Assembly: GCF_030930995.1 (NCBI RefSeq)
Contig: NZ_CP133217.1
Coordinates: 1,302,001 to 1,366,000 of the forward strand
Direction: 5' to 3'
From: Thiothrix subterranea
GTDB lineage: Bacteria > Pseudomonadota > Gammaproteobacteria > Thiotrichales > Thiotrichaceae
DNA length: 64,000 nt
Shown here: positions 249 through 8,311 of the stretch, piece by piece
How the letters are laid out: the number at the start of each line of letters is the position of its first letter
Numbering within the stretch: position 1 is the first letter of the stretch
The notes under the pieces: model-generated
Seen by the model: only the letters and a program-made list of their open reading frames with translations
Told to the model about the DNA's origin: nothing
Database searches by the model: none
Program-made: the position numbers and the translations under genes

Positions 249-917
249 ATGAATTATAGCGCAATCAATTTAGACTGGCATGAGATTAACACGGTGTTTT
301 TGGACATGGATGGCACGTTGTTGGATTTGCATTTCGACAACCATTTCTGGCTGGAACATTTGCCGGTGCGTTTAGCCGAACAACGCGGTGCTACGCCGGA
401 TGAAATTCGCGCCTATTTGCACGAGCGTTATACCGAAATGGAAGGCACGTTAGATTGGTATTGCCTTGATTTCTGGCAGAATCATCTGGGCACAGACTTG
501 GTGGCGCTCAAACACGAAATCGCGGATCGAATTGCGATTCGGGCGCACGTCGAACGCTTTCTCGAATCCCTGCGCGAACGTGGCAAGCGGGTGGTGTTGC
601 TTACCAATGCGCACCAGAAAAGCGTGGGAATGAAATTCGGCTATGTGGCATTAGCGCATTATTTTGATGAAATTATTACGTCGCATTCCTTGGGTTTGCC
701 GAAAGAGCATCCCGAATTCTGGCAAAAATTGAGTACGGTGGAGGTGTTTGATCCGGCACATTCCTTATTCATTGATGACAATTTGCACGTATTACGCGCC
801 GCACACGCGCACGGGGTGAAGTATTTGCTGGCAATCCACCAACCGGATTCGCAACAACCGCCGAAAGATACCGCTGAATTTACGGCAGTGGCGTGTTACA
901 CGCAGTTGCTGGGCTGA
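249..917 (+). CDS. yrfG: HAD-family nucleotidase, YrfG-like (GMP/IMP nucleotidase)
   Basis: A 222-residue haloacid dehalogenase hydrolase. HAD motif I is FLDMDGTLLDL near residue 18, motif II is VVLLTNA near residue 118, and the motif III/IV region carries Lys in GLPKEHPEFW and the acidic pair in SLFIDDN. Length, the WLEHLP segment and the EMEGTLDWYCLDFW cap region fit the YrfG family, which dephosphorylates purine 5'-nucleotides such as GMP and IMP in the cytoplasm. The ATG at 249 is preferred over upstream in-frame starts because a GGAAG motif precedes it. Its 3' end overlaps the remnant of a hydrogenase protease on the other strand (stop at 896). Substrate assignment rests on family resemblance only. 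Confidence 0.85.
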   Translation: MNYSAINLDWHEINTVFLDMDGTLLDLHFDNHFWLEHLPVRLAEQRGATPDEIRAYLHERYTEMEGTLDWYCLDFWQNHLGTDLVALKHEIADRIAIRAHVERFLESLRERGKRVVLLTNAHQKSVGMKFGYVALAHYFDEIITSHSLGLPKEHPEFWQKLSTVEVFDPAHSLFIDDNLHVLRAAHAHGVKYLLAIHQPDSQQPPKDTAEFTAVACYTQLLG

Positions 918-1093
918 GCCACTACCACGCCCCACACCTCCAAACGTTTCGGCAATGTGCCCAAGACAGCACCCATTGCCAAGGCTTCGGCGACCCCAAA
1001 ACCGTGGGTCGAGGTGGGGAATTCGAGTCGTGCCAACTCATCCGGTTTGAGTTTGAGGATCAGGCCGGGTGAATGCTTGGGCGAAATGACCGC
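896..1093 (-). pseudogene. NiFe-hydrogenase maturation protease, C-terminal fragment
   Basis: On the minus strand 1093 to 896 one open frame reads SPGLILKLKPDELARL, then STHGFGVAEALAMGAVLGTL, then LEVWGVVV, ending at a stop at 896. STHGFG..EAL and the following hydrophobic strand are the C-terminal signature of HyaD/HybD/HoxW endopeptidases, which remove the C-terminal tail of the NiFe large subunit after metal insertion. It has no start of its own because a TnpB element is inserted immediately upstream at 1094. Joining it to the fragment that begins at 2576 restores VILIDAVISPK in frame. It is therefore the 3' half of an insertion-split gene. Confidence 0.85.
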
Positions 1094-1260
1094 TTGACAT
1101 CCTCCCCTCCCTGAAGGAAGGGGATTCCTACTGCATTCAGCTAGATAGCTGACTTACTTCGGCGAGTTCCTGCTTCATCGAGGCGCGTAATGCTCCATCT
1201 CCACAGGCTAACAAGCGGTGTCCCCGCTCTTTAACATTGATCGCGCCGACATGATCGGCG
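1094..1260 (-). ncRNA. Probable omega (reRNA) guide RNA scaffold of TnpB
   Basis: In IS605-type elements the guide RNA overlaps the 3' end of tnpB and extends through the right end. Here that region (minus strand) contains a hairpin built on TCAGCTA/TAGCTGA directly at the tnpB stop codon and the right-end stem CCCCTtCC..GGgAGGGG at 1123-1101. The last element base is 1094, so the guide would start at 1093 with GCGGTCATTTCGCCCA. The 5' limit given is approximate. The call is by family analogy plus visible hairpins; no transcript evidence. Confidence 0.5.
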
Positions 1261-2372
1261 TGATTTTCATAGTGACACTTCACGCACACAAACTTCGCTT
1301 GCGTTTGGCGGTTATCCGCCGAGACGTGATGGCATTCGGGGCATTCTTGGCTGGTATAATGGGCGGGAACAGCAAACAACATGCCGCCGTTCCATGCCAG
1401 TTTGTAGTCGAGTTGCCGCCGAAACTCACCCCAGCCTTGGTCGACAATGGCTTTGTTTAAGCCCGATTTTGCAGCCACGTTTTTGCCGGGGTTTTCTGCC
1501 GTGCCTGCCGCTGATCTGGACATATTGCCTACCTGCAAATCTTCGATGAACACGAGCGCGTGGTTTTGGCTGATCGTGGTCGTCGCTTTGTGCAGGAAAT
1601 CGCGGCGGGTATCGGCGATTTTTGTGTGGATTTTTTGAACCTTGGCTTTCGCTTTTTTCCAGTTGTTACTGAATTTCTGTTTATGCGCCATGCGCCGTTG
1701 GTATTTGGCGAGCTTGGCTTGTTGGGTTTTGAAGCTATTGAGCGGGGCAATGTAGCTGCCATCTGAGAAGGTGGCGAAACGGGCTATGCCCAAGTCAATG
1801 CCGATAGCCGTGGTAGCGGTGGATACGGGCTGTTCTATTTCCCGCTGGGTTTGAATGCTAATGTACCACTTGCCGTTTTTACCGGACACGGTGACATTGC
1901 GCAATTCCCCCAACACTTCGCGGCTGTTGCGGTAGCGTAACCAGCCCAGTTTAGGCAGGAAAACACGGTTGTTACGCTGATCGAGCTTGATTTGTTTGGG
2001 GTCTGGGTAGCGAAAGCTGTCGCCGCTACCCTTGCGCTTGAAACGGGGAAAACCTGCCCTGAGGGCAGCCGAAGGGTCGGCACGCTTGGCAAAGAAATTT
2101 TTGTAGGCTTTTTCCAAGTCCTTTAAAGCGTGTTGCAGCGGATGGACGGGGGAATCTTTCAGCCAAGAGGTTTCTGTGCCATTCCGCCATGCGGTCAGGT
2201 GTTTTGCCATTGCCACGTAACCGATGAATTTTTCACCCGCCTCATGATTGGCTTGCTGCAACGCTAACGCCCTGTTGTAAACAAACCGACACGACCCCGC
2301 GTAACGGCGAAGATTGTGCCGTTGTCCGCCGTCGGGCTTGAGTTCGTATTTAAAGGCTTGGAGTCGTTGCAT
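1137..2372 (-). CDS. tnpB: RNA-guided nuclease TnpB (IS200/IS605 accessory protein)
   Basis: About 411 residues. Features in order: an N-terminal HTH_OrfB-like segment (MQRLQAFKYELKPDG), RuvC-I motif GIDLGIARFA with the catalytic Asp, RuvC-II motif VFIEDLQVGNM with the catalytic Glu, a CPEC...CVKC zinc ribbon, and the C-terminal RuvC-III Asp in NHADHVGAINV. All three catalytic acids and four zinc Cys are present, so it looks intact. TnpB nucleases use an RNA made from the element's right end to cut DNA next to a TTGAT-like TAM and help retain the element. The start at 2372 fits the family N-terminus; an in-frame ATG further upstream (2450) would add 26 atypical residues. The only mobile gene in the element. 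Confidence 0.92.
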   Translation of the reverse strand: MQRLQAFKYELKPDGGQRHNLRRYAGSCRFVYNRALALQQANHEAGEKFIGYVAMAKHLTAWRNGTETSWLKDSPVHPLQHALKDLEKAYKNFFAKRADPSAALRAGFPRFKRKGSGDSFRYPDPKQIKLDQRNNRVFLPKLGWLRYRNSREVLGELRNVTVSGKNGKWYISIQTQREIEQPVSTATTAIGIDLGIARFATFSDGSYIAPLNSFKTQQAKLAKYQRRMAHKQKFSNNWKKAKAKVQKIHTKIADTRRDFLHKATTTISQNHALVFIEDLQVGNMSRSAAGTAENPGKNVAAKSGLNKAIVDQGWGEFRRQLDYKLAWNGGMLFAVPAHYTSQECPECHHVSADNRQTQAKFVCVKCHYENHADHVGAINVKERGHRLLACGDGALRASMKQELAEVSQLSS

Positions 2373-2575
2373 ACCCGTAGTATAGCTTGGGGGGAGGGCA
2401 ATTATCTGGGTGAACCGTCTTAAAGGCGTTTTTAGCCGGATGATACGCAAGAAAAATTATCCAGCATCCGTCATCCAGCAGCAGCAAACACCCCAACATC
2501 ACTCCGAACACAGGGAGGCTTCGCCTCCCGCGCTATCCTCCCCGCCCTGAAGGACGAGGTTTGCCGCGCAACCTG

Positions 2576-2645
2576 ATCAATCAGGATCACGTAGTCATAA
2601 TCAGCCAAGTATTTCAGCAAATCCGCGCCTGATTCTGGCTGGTGG
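2576..2645 (-). pseudogene. NiFe-hydrogenase maturation protease, N-terminal-side fragment
   Basis: Minus-strand frame reading [20 protein letters not shown] up to the TTGAT at which the TnpB element entered. The pattern LL..L..YDYVILID is the first conserved beta-strand/Asp motif of HyaD/HoxW-type proteases. The usual N-terminus (about 50-60 residues with the GNxxxxDDG motif) is missing. Instead the frame runs back into a remnant of the hydrogenase large subunit in another frame, which points to a deletion junction near 2640. It joins in frame to the C-terminal fragment at 896-1093 when the insertion is removed. Confidence 0.75.
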
Positions 2646-2757
2646 GCGGCACAATCCGTGCGGTTTTCACCGTGCCATCGGCATGAAAAGCGTAGCGATG
2701 CCACAACATTCCGCGTGGTGCTTCGGTGCAACCAAACCCGGTACTTTTCAAAACCCC
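2614..2757 (-). pseudogene. NiFe-hydrogenase large (alpha) subunit, internal fragment
   Basis: A minus-strand frame encodes [18 protein letters not shown] and [15 protein letters not shown], the EAPRG(x)L.H.Y and PT.QNQ blocks that all NiFe-hydrogenase large subunits share in their C-terminal third. Nothing of the N-terminal RxCGxC region or the C-terminal DPCxxC metal-binding region remains. It begins within a few bases of the gamma-subunit stop (2748), so the small subunit and about three quarters of the large subunit have been deleted. Its frame stops at 2614, inside the protease fragment. Non-functional remnant. Confidence 0.85.
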
Positions 2758-3584
2758 TTCACCCCTAACAGGTGGCTGATTTCTGGTAACGGGTAAACCG
2801 GGCCGTCTTTGCAGATAAAGCTGCCACCGAATTGGCAATGCCCGCAATGCCCGACGGCGCAGTGCATATTGCGTTCCATGCTCAACCAGATGTCATGGTC
2901 GGGCAAACCGCGTTCCTGCAACGCCTGGGCGGTGGCTCGCATCATCCCTTCAGGGCCACACAACATGGCAACCGCATTGGCGGGGTCGAATTGCGCTTGC
3001 GCAATCAATTGCGTGACTAGCCCAGTGTTGAACGGCCAGCCTTGCCCGGTTTGGTCAGCCGTGAGCAATACTTGGGTATTGGGAGCAGCCGCCCAGGTGT
3101 CGTATTGCCTGCGCCAAATCAAATCGTGCGTGTGTTTGACCCCTTGCATAATGATTAAACGGGCGTAATGGGCGCGTCGCCGCAATACGTAATGCACCAC
3201 CGATACCACCGGCGCACAACCCAAGCCGCCGGTAATCAGCAAGACATCACGCCCTTGCGCTGCTGCCATCGGCCACCCTCGCCCGAAGGGGCCGCGCAAC
3301 CCCAAATAATCACCTGTTTGCAATTGCGCCAGTGCCTTGGTGACACGCCCCACAACCCGCACGGTATGATCAATCAAATGCGTATCTTTCGGGTCAGAGG
3401 CAATCGAAATCGCGACTTCGCCGACCCCGTGCAGGTACAGCATATTGAATTGCCCCGCATCAAAATGGTAACGCGCATGGTGGGCAAGATCGGTGAAGCG
3501 CAGCCGTAGGGTGAAAATATCCGGGGCTTCCTGCACCCGTGCCACGATTTGCACTTCGTGTGGTAAGTAATCATTGGATTTCAT
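2748..3584 (-). CDS. hydG: Sulfhydrogenase gamma subunit-like FAD/NAD(P)-binding oxidoreductase with [2Fe-2S] site
   Basis: 278 residues. An N-terminal FAD-binding barrel of the ferredoxin reductase family (residues 10-100) is followed by a nucleotide-binding domain with [16 protein letters not shown] near residue 115 and CGPEGMM near 210. The C-terminal Cys cluster [12 protein letters not shown]...FICKDGPV near 240-262 matches the [2Fe-2S] site of HydG/PyrK-type subunits. It normally passes electrons between NAD(P)H and the hydrogenase. Its ATG overlaps the stop of the beta subunit gene by four bases, so the two are translationally coupled. The last residues (GVKGF) sit on a deletion junction, and the catalytic subunits downstream are destroyed. 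Whether the protein still has a partner is unknown. Confidence 0.85.
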
Positions 3585-4654
3585 CCCAGTTGTTCCACCT
3601 CAGCGGTCAAATCAATCCCCGCCGGACACCAGCTAATGCAGCGCCCGCAACCCGTGCAGCCACTGCGCCCGAATTGCTCATGCCAGCCTGCGAGTTTGTG
3701 CGTCAGCCATTGGCGGTAATAGTCGGTGGCATTGCTGCGAATTTGCCAGCCGTGGATGTAGCTGTGACCGGGTTGAAAACACGAATCCCAGCGGCGTTCA
3801 TGACGGCTGGTGTCACCGTCCAGATCCGGGATTTCCAGCGCTTGATGGCAGAAACAGGTGGGGCAAACACTGGTGCAGTTGCCACAAGCCAGACAGCGTG
3901 CGCCAACGGTTTGCCAGTGCGGGTGGTTAAGATGTGCAAACAAGGGCGGTTTAGCGGGCAAGTGGCGTTGCTGCTGGGTCGCGGCTTGCATCCGCTGCTG
4001 GGCGGTGTGTTGTTGCGCATCACTGGCGGGGGTAAGCGGCAATTGGGCGGCAAGGGTCGCGCCCGCCGTAGAGCCGCTACTCAGCAAAAAACCTGCCGCA
4101 ATTTCGCTTAATAACAGGTCGTAAGGTTGGCGAATCTCAGGGCCATCGCCGGTTGATACGCAAAAACAGGTGGCAGCGGCGTGGGTACAATTTACCCCGA
4201 TTAGCAGCAAGCTCTCCCGCCGTGCTTGGTAATACGGGTCGACATGCTTGCCGTGTAAAAAATGCTGATCTTGCAGCGTGAGTGCGGCAAGGTCACAGGC
4301 ACGTACCCCGATGATGGCAGTTTTTTGCGGTTGTGGCAGGGTGGCTTGAAAGCGCAAGCGCCCGCTCTGGTCGCGTTGCACTGCCCACAGGTTTTCTTGC
4401 GGGGCAAAGGTATACGGTTTAATGGCGGATGCACCATTGCTCCAATCGAACCAATAAGGCGAATCGGTTTGCTGTAAGCGGTAATGCGCCGGTTGTTGCT
4501 CATCCTGAAAGCCTTGGGGCAGTTGCGTGACGCTGTGTAAGTGGTCGAACACGATTGCGCCTTGGCGGATTTGCGGGCCGACACAATCGTACCCCGCTTG
4601 TGTTAATGCACGTAGCAGGTGGGGGAAGTCTTCCCGCGCAAGAAAATGATTCAT
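3581..4654 (-). CDS. hydB: Sulfhydrogenase beta subunit-like 4Fe-4S dicluster protein
   Basis: 357 residues of the HydB / anaerobic sulfite reductase A-like family. Near residue 255 there is a CLACGNC..VCPTCFC cluster and near residue 335 a [15 protein letters not shown] cluster, each a ferredoxin-type [4Fe-4S] set. An upstream Cys-rich segment ([21 protein letters not shown]) is also family-typical. In group 3b hydrogenases this subunit wires the gamma flavoprotein to the small subunit. It lies 72 bp downstream of cbbO on the same strand, with no clear terminator between, so it may be read through from the carboxysome operon or from a small AT-rich promoter at 4655-4726. The hydrogenase catalytic genes that should follow are deleted. 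Confidence 0.85.
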
Positions 4655-7626: not shown

Positions 7627-7917
7627 TTACTCCGACTTCGGCAAAATGCTTTCGACTTCAGAGTGGACGCGGGCAATAATGTGCGCCGCGACCAAACCGT
7701 CACCCACGCGCTCACAAGCGTCAGCACCCGCACGTACCGCTGCGTTGACCGCACCCGTTTCGCCGCGAACCAACACCGTCACATAACCACCGCCAACGAA
7801 TTGACGACCGATCAGCTTGACTTCAGCCGCTTTGGTCATGGCATCGGCGGCTTCGATAGCCGGAACGAGACCCCGTGTTTCAATCATGCCTAACGCAACA
7901 CCTGTTACTTGTGCCAT
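7627..7917 (-). CDS. csoS1: Carboxysome shell hexamer protein CsoS1 (copy 2)
   Basis: 96 residues, a single BMC domain. It has the canonical [18 protein letters not shown] start, the central [13 protein letters not shown] strand and [14 protein letters not shown], and ends ILPKSE. It forms the cyclic hexamers tiling the facets of the alpha-carboxysome shell, with pores for bicarbonate and RuBP. It differs from the neighbouring upstream copy by only about four residues over the shared 94, so the two arose by duplication or are kept alike by gene conversion. An AAGGAG ribosome binding site precedes the ATG. Confidence 0.95.
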   Translation of the reverse strand: MAQVTGVALGMIETRGLVPAIEAADAMTKAAEVKLIGRQFVGGGYVTVLVRGETGAVNAAVRAGADACERVGDGLVAAHIIARVHSEVESILPKSE

Positions 7918-7945
7918 GTGTATTCTCCTTATAAACGCTTAACCA

Positions 7946-8263
7946 TTAACCAATTACTGCATTGTCAACCGGCTGACCGGCTTTCGGCAGGATGCTTTCG
8001 ACTTCAGAGTGGACGCGGGCAATAATGTGCGCTGCCACCAGACCGTCACCCACGCGCTCACACGCATCCGCGCCTGCCCGCACCGCTGCATTCACAGCAC
8101 CGGTTTCACCACGTACCAGCACGGTTACGTAACCGCCGCCCACGAATTGGCGACCTACCAAACGTACTTCAGCCGCTTTGGTCATGGCGTCGGCGGCTTC
8201 AATAGCCGGTACCAGACCGCGTGTTTCAATCATGCCTAAGGCAATACCAGTTACTTCAGCCAT
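7946..8263 (-). CDS. csoS1: Carboxysome shell hexamer protein CsoS1 (copy 1)
   Basis: 105 residues, a single BMC domain nearly identical to the next gene, with a short C-terminal extension ([12 protein letters not shown]). The ATG at 8263 is chosen because it has GAGAGG upstream and aligns with the neighbour's MAQVTG start; an in-frame ATG at 8293 would add ten non-homologous residues. It builds the hexagonal facets of the shell. The last 40 or so coding bases of the conserved part are identical in DNA to the second copy, which suggests recent exchange. Confidence 0.95.
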
Positions 8264-8311
8264 TTGAATATCCTCTCGTAAAAAATCAGTCATTACTCAA
8301 CACAGCGGCGG

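Follow-up and report, generated by a model that had tools for sequence, protein, structure and literature searches.

What allows a tnpB gene to outlive the transposase gene of its element, and whether the element may still spread thereafter, are the questions raised by a 1,482-bp insertion in Thiothrix subterranea (genome G000; 4.41 Mb, two contigs), located in a stretch of 64,000 nt (the window). Retention of elements by TnpB has been proposed (PMC8612924), a TnpB gene drive has been shown on plasmids (PMC11870625), and decayed IS605 elements filed as IS1341 have been described (PMC7290912). A first-pass annotation of the window had described an autonomous-looking, tnpB-only element that interrupts a hydrogenase maturation protease gene and lends itself as a natural test of TnpB retention. 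We are highly confident that the insertion belongs to the IS605-type elements with a TTGAT (ISDra2-like) target, that it is decayed, and that it has kept TnpB together with a predicted omega RNA. As such it is an ordinary decayed IS605-type tnpB carrier, and a useful case because its sequence is young while its flanks are older.

Element ends and target site

The element occupies positions 1094–2575 on the minus strand, with its left end (LE) at 2575 and its right end (RE) at 1094; both ends are common to other copies of the family. Read on the minus strand, TTGAT is followed by CAGGTTGCG, and at the other end GGATGTCAA is followed by GCGGTC. The layout, as read in the sequence, is TTGAT, 1,482 bp, GTCAA, and the TTGAT target, or TAM (2576–2580, minus strand), is present without duplication. 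The locus combines a fixed short target, insertion 3' of it and lack of a duplication, as IS200/IS605 elements do.

We surveyed the ends of the family at 46 loci. The search pattern recognised left ends at 33 of them, equivalent to 30 distinct sites, at which the bases 5' of the left end were TTGAT in 26 cases, CTGAT in 3 and GTCAA in 1. The ISDra2-like TTGAT target without duplication claimed in the first-pass annotation was thus borne out. The right end (...GTCAA) was detected by pattern at 37 of the 46 loci; the remaining nine comprise one GTCAT, one GTCAA missed by the pattern and seven right ends interrupted by another IS.

The family holds some further peculiarities. CTGAT precedes three copies in G006 (L195, L200, L201). 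The seven interrupted right ends also belong to G006 (L193–L196, L198, L202, L203; 7 of its 23 copies) and are all hit at the same CTATCTAG; the interrupting IS carries TGTCTGACC ends, concerns loci L243 and L244 as well, and in the two G006 copies with the far side read is about 1.8 kb long and lies in opposite orientations. At L137 (G006:C1:4021957), a TTTAT-type element lies with its right end (GTCAA) directly against the left end of the family copy, which looks like an insertion of the TTTAT-type element exactly at the junction. L213 and L214 (G009) are 354-bp miniature derivatives with both ends and TTGAT at the left that lack tnpB, and L246 (G002:C16, 55153–55372) is a fragment that retains the terminal 220 bp (the omega RNA region) at 93% identity.

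Comparison of copies further delineated, at 2540–2563 (minus strand), a putative subterminal left-end hairpin preceded by CAAA, the presumed target guide. Copies following TTGAT read CAAACC before this hairpin, and sister-group copies following TTTAT read AAAACC, a correspondence that is expected if target choice works by base pairing, as is stated for IS608 (PMC5934647). The predicted single-strand DNA folds of LE and RE were no better than those of shuffled DNA; the RE hairpin showed two-sided pair changes in a 32-row alignment, counted without a shuffle control.

Empty sites in related genomes

The protease sequence without insertion aligned gap-free over the predicted junction in all five uninterrupted relatives (L146, L147, L148, L149 and L151 in genomes G002, G009, G006, G005 and G008, respectively). 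Two of the five, G002 and G009, carry TTGAT at the junction; in the remaining relatives the pentamer ends in GGAT, AGAT and CGAC. A pattern search for the junction gave six matches, only those in G002 and G009 falling inside the protease. There the junction reads CTGATTGAT followed by GCAGTCATTTCC, and the predicted one CTGATTGAT followed by GCGGTCATTTCG. The gap-free alignments, together with TTGAT in G002 and G009, place the junction to the base. No empty site of the same species was found, and the nearest relative, G013, is filled with the same insertion, so that the exact ancestral letters at the junction stay unread. The proposal that the empty site can be reconstructed to the base thus holds for the placement of the junction.

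A second copy of the family occupies one site common to G000, G013 and G014. Its predicted 90-base empty site was recovered at 90 of 90 positions in G009, where the empty allele has TTGAT plus the identical guide, and is 94% alike in G002. For the third copy in the T. subterranea genome, the search for an empty site gave only partial matches outside G000. The shared ends of family copies, the uninterrupted relatives and the empty site of the second copy jointly confirm both ends of the element to the base.

The hydrogenase locus

The joined sequence has an open frame across the junction (VILID/AVISPK). To the RE side lies the C-terminal remnant of the hydrogenase maturation protease (893–1093, minus strand), assigned by alignment with relatives and by a HycI match of 19.5 bits that is below the Pfam cut-off of 23. 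To the LE side, all on the minus strand, follow an internal protease piece of 15 codons (2576–2620), 127 bp kept from the 3' part of the large-subunit gene of the hydrogenase (2621–2747), and the intact frames of a HydG-like FAD/NAD(P) subunit (2748–3584) and a HydB-like 4Fe-4S subunit (3581–4654). The subunit names derive from NCBIfam models that scored below their cut-offs, including HydG and HydB, and only the G002 protease exceeds one. Relative to G002, 1,665 bp are missing between the HydG-like gene and the large-subunit fragment, and 300 bp between this fragment and the protease piece. Judged by this comparison, the locus has lost the small subunit, the greater part of the large subunit and the N-terminus of the protease, and G013 has the same deleted state.

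The element does lie inside protease sequence, as first annotated, but what hosts it is a hydrogenase remnant in which two other segments are deleted, and not merely an interrupted gene, so that interruption of a working protease cannot be asserted. Likewise, the restored maturation-protease frame is open, yet it joins only a 15-codon piece to the C-terminus. A membrane-bound hydrogenase has been placed in the Thiothrix core genome (PMC8570282); the main text of this pangenome paper makes no mention of IS200 or of insertion sequences. Elsewhere in the window (7627–8293) lie two adjacent, very similar small ORFs of 96 and 115 aa, which we take to resemble carboxysome shell proteins.

TnpB, predicted omega RNA and guide

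The tnpB gene (1137–2372, minus strand) is an open frame of 411 aa with D193, E277 and D373 in RuvC motifs; these residues were placed by hand on an alignment with a solved TnpB, and the letters were verified in the sequence. The protein exceeds the Pfam cut-offs of OrfB_IS605, Cas12f1-like_TNB and HTH_OrfB_IS605 as well as the NCBIfam cut-off for guided_TnpB, and matches the solved TnpB chains 8bf8/8h1j with an E value of 2.4e-55. A TnpB with RuvC and Zn ribbon, as found here, is a feature of IS200/IS605. Its closest relatives are the TnpB proteins of T. fructosivorans and T. caldifontis. By its open frame and profile matches the nuclease looks intact, and a working transposase is lacking, just as the first-pass annotation had stated. 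TnpB is not always kept, however, since the tnpB frame is shortened in two of the three copies of G000. L154 and L155 (G000:C2:1486438 and 3642928) share the same 94-nt tnpB deletion at different sites, and the deletion is missing from the orthologous copies of L154 in G013 and G014; gene conversion within the genome is perhaps the source of this commonality.

The predicted omega RNA scaffold (1094–1205, minus strand) comprises the 3' end of tnpB and the RE, folded into three hairpins. In an alignment of 32 rows, 12 of them from Thiothrix and the rest from other bacteria, each of the three has two-sided pair changes, by a count that had no shuffle control. Of 32 right ends collected from bacteria other than Thiothrix, those lacking a start motif were left out of the alignment, as was one truncated row (L052). 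These changes point to conserved RNA structure in the omega RNA region. Fourfold-site differences amounted to 0.131 in the last 50 codons versus 0.350 elsewhere, in 19 tnpB frames, all longer than 1,190 bases and with a start that fitted a single search pattern. This pattern excluded seven or more further long frames (e.g., L186, L188 and L189), the near-duplicates L120 and L158 were dropped, and the permutation ignores relatedness. The low 3' end of tnpB is not unique, as inner blocks are equally low (0.082 in codons 221–240 and 0.126 in codons 261–280). Rfam gave seven matches with E values up to 5, none of which reached its gathering score; HgcC (0.0033) and RAGATH-18 (0.027) ranked first and both lie at the right end.

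The presumed 16-nt guide (1078–1093, minus strand) is the host flank adjoining the RE, its length being taken from PMC8612924. Searching the T. subterranea genome for TTGAT plus guide with up to 3 mismatches gave a single match, namely the filled locus itself, with GTCAA replacing the TAM.

A tnpA relic and the missing transposase

Divergent from tnpB lies a tnpA relic of 18 codons (2410–2463, plus strand) encoding VNRLKGVFSRMIRKKNYP, with 15 of 18 residues identical to the TnpA of L167 in G006; QQQTP of the tnpA end survives at 2479–2493. Among the 23 G006 copies examined, L167 alone matches Y1 over the full length; the tnpB frame of L167 itself is shortened. The relic and the Y1 frame in L167 argue for descent from a tnpA-bearing element. 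According to the rule in PMC9956272, tnpA-derived DNA of more than 20 bp denotes decay of an IS605 element; the 54 bp retained here exceed this length and so assign the element to the decayed IS605-type class. The view of an autonomous-looking tnpB-only element was accordingly abandoned. Descent from a true IS1341-type lineage, without tnpA from the start, would fit the single gene and the typical length, but the same 54 bp inside the element conflict with an absence of tnpA-derived sequence over 20 bp (PMC9956272); we rejected this origin, which we consider highly improbable.

PF01797 (Y1) matches were obtained in 10 of 16 genomes, with none in G013 or G014. The sole Y1 transposase found in G000 is 31% identical to that of L167, and three short sequences taken from the ends of the element family are absent from the 4 kb around it; a cognate transposase was thus not found in G000. 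Excision is therefore unexpected, which makes the locus ill suited to testing TnpB retention against excision, contrary to what had been envisaged for it. It lends itself better to the study of persistence, and perhaps of same-site spread, after transposase loss.

Divergence of the element and its flanks

We compared all aligned bases, unfiltered, of the element and of 900 bp on each side, noting that Fisher tests assume independent sites. At the window site, G000 and G013 differ at 2 of 1,475 positions in the element versus 44 of 1,799 in the flanks. At the second site, the corresponding mismatches were 12/1,470 versus 93/1,800 for G013/G014, 11/1,376 versus 87/1,800 for G013/G000, and 4/1,376 versus 96/1,800 for G014/G000. 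A comparison site occupied by another TnpB family, with the TnpB frame broken in one genome, showed no difference (30/1,234 versus 43/1,799; Fisher 1.0). Synonymous differences in tnpB at the two shared sites were likewise far below those of the flanking frames (0/293 versus 88.5/856, 5/271 versus 119/636, 7/250 versus 146.5/795, and 2/251 versus 184.3/837), with a mild deficit at the comparison site as well (20/255 versus 99/776; Fisher 0.03). Flanking frames were picked automatically, dropping those with few synonymous sites, more than 10% protein-changing divergence or little synonymous excess, and the frameshifted second-site allele of G000 was counted on the reference frame. The tnpB of the window pair has a single change, so that dN/dS is uninformative, and other pairs of family copies have dS values of 0.11 to 0.63, which indicates that sites in the element are free to change.

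These counts indicate that at both shared sites the ancestor of the filled alleles is more recent than the surrounding DNA. They speak against simple vertical inheritance of a dead relic, a reading that would be in line with the failure to find a cognate transposase and with the position common to G000 and G013. Under such inheritance the element should match the divergence of its flanks, which it does not, and dS elsewhere in the family is as given above; we rejected this reading on the element versus flank divergence and regard it as unlikely.

At the window site, the flanks are free of differences for 349 bp beyond the LE and for 73 bp beyond the RE, and the low-divergence tract measures about 1.9 kb. 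The identical LE flank includes both hydrogenase deletion junctions, which lie 45 and 172 bp away from the element. Around the second copy, differences start again 54–78 bp from the element ends; the nearest 45 bp on each side are identical also in the empty G009 allele and are for this reason uninformative on a copied tract. The second-site flanks are about equally distant among five genomes.

The search for more shared sites, extended to other TnpBs in G000, G013, G002 and G009, gave at least 37 further loci. Those listed include a complex G000/G013 pair (L262/L268), left out of the comparison, and a G009/G002 pair (L256/L257) that holds only a right-end fragment. In a plasmid search, 1,718 records matched, 26 of them over at least 80% of the query; no plasmid vector was identified, the eight matches listed being 67–70% identical.

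Discussion

The sequence features outlined above are best explained by the following history. Single-strand transposition, at a time when TnpA was available, would have brought the element into the hydrogenase maturation protease gene on the 3' side of TTGAT, and most of tnpA has been deleted since. The remaining TnpB and omega RNA, if the latter is produced, would use the 16 nt of host sequence beside the right end as guide. TnpB would then cut any copy of the locus that reads TTGAT plus guide, in other words the empty allele, and if a filled copy served as repair template the element would be re-established.

As the search gave no Y1 transposase for either G013 or G014, same-site recombination is the simplest route by which the filled alleles could have been shared. 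Cutting of the empty allele by TnpB would drive such recombination, although ordinary recombination would suffice as well. In the first case, TnpB would cut the empty allele of a recipient, and recombination would copy in the element with short flanks (homing) in the absence of a transposase; this lateral spread adds to the decayed-IS605 explanation and does not replace it. The tract copied at the window site would have brought the hydrogenase deletions with it, in line with the position of both deletion junctions inside the identical 349 bp on the LE side. Homing would further account for the lower divergence of the element relative to its flanks at both shared sites but not, by unfiltered bases, at the comparison site, for the low synonymous differences in tnpB, and for the filled state of G013 and G014 despite the lack of a PF01797 match; a suitable target, the empty allele with TTGAT and the identical guide, exists in G009. 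The sample, on the other hand, comprises two sites of the element family, three genomes and one comparison site, the latter also being somewhat low by synonymous sites, and the second site has no clear co-conversion tract. The G000 allele at the second site is also young and yet has a frameshifted tnpB, which speaks against a need for TnpB; the frame may have been broken later. Ordinary recombination would give the same pattern. Taken together, we see in homing a serious possibility that falls somewhat short of an even chance.

Ordinary homologous recombination between lineages could have carried the filled allele with no role for TnpB. The roughly 1.9-kb tract of low divergence at the window site is of plausible length for this, and the near-equal distances among the five genomes in the second-site flanks suggest that this region may recombine often. 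At both sites, however, the young tract is nearly confined to the element, and chance breakpoints so close to both of its ends in several lineages seem unlikely; we thus regard ordinary recombination as possible, with a leaning against it. The young element in older flanks should, with two sites and one comparison, be taken as a lead.

The Thiothrix element resembles ISDra2 of Deinococcus radiodurans in its insertion 3' of a TTGAT target without duplication, in a right-end guide RNA, here predicted, that serves TnpB, and in the identity of TAM and target (PMC8612924, PMC2806898). Unlike ISDra2, it lacks a working tnpA and its relic is divergent from tnpB. Decayed IS605 copies in Halanaerobium hydrogeniformans likewise consist of ends and tnpB, with one intact tnpA, and partial tnpA led to their misfiling as IS1341 (PMC7290912), whereas the search of the Thiothrix host genome gave no cognate tnpA, and two of the sites are occupied in more than one species. 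In the plasmid TnpB gene drive, cutting of element-free copies by TnpB favours the element (PMC11870625); that system is experimental, and the Thiothrix case is a sequence signature on chromosomes only. Natural same-site spread of TnpB between species did not appear in the titles and abstract openings of the papers that our search retrieved, which does not prove its absence.

We tentatively propose, while holding the opposite to be the safer assumption, that TnpB-only elements may spread between Thiothrix species without a transposase by RNA-guided homing, in the present case also carrying deletions of hydrogenase catalytic genes. The locus bears on the question of why tnpB outlives tnpA, as it offers exact ends, an exact empty allele, genomes free of Y1 transposases by our search, and an element younger than its flanks. 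With these features of the window locus and the second site, the notions that TnpB guards against excision and that TnpB spreads by homing predict different outcomes.
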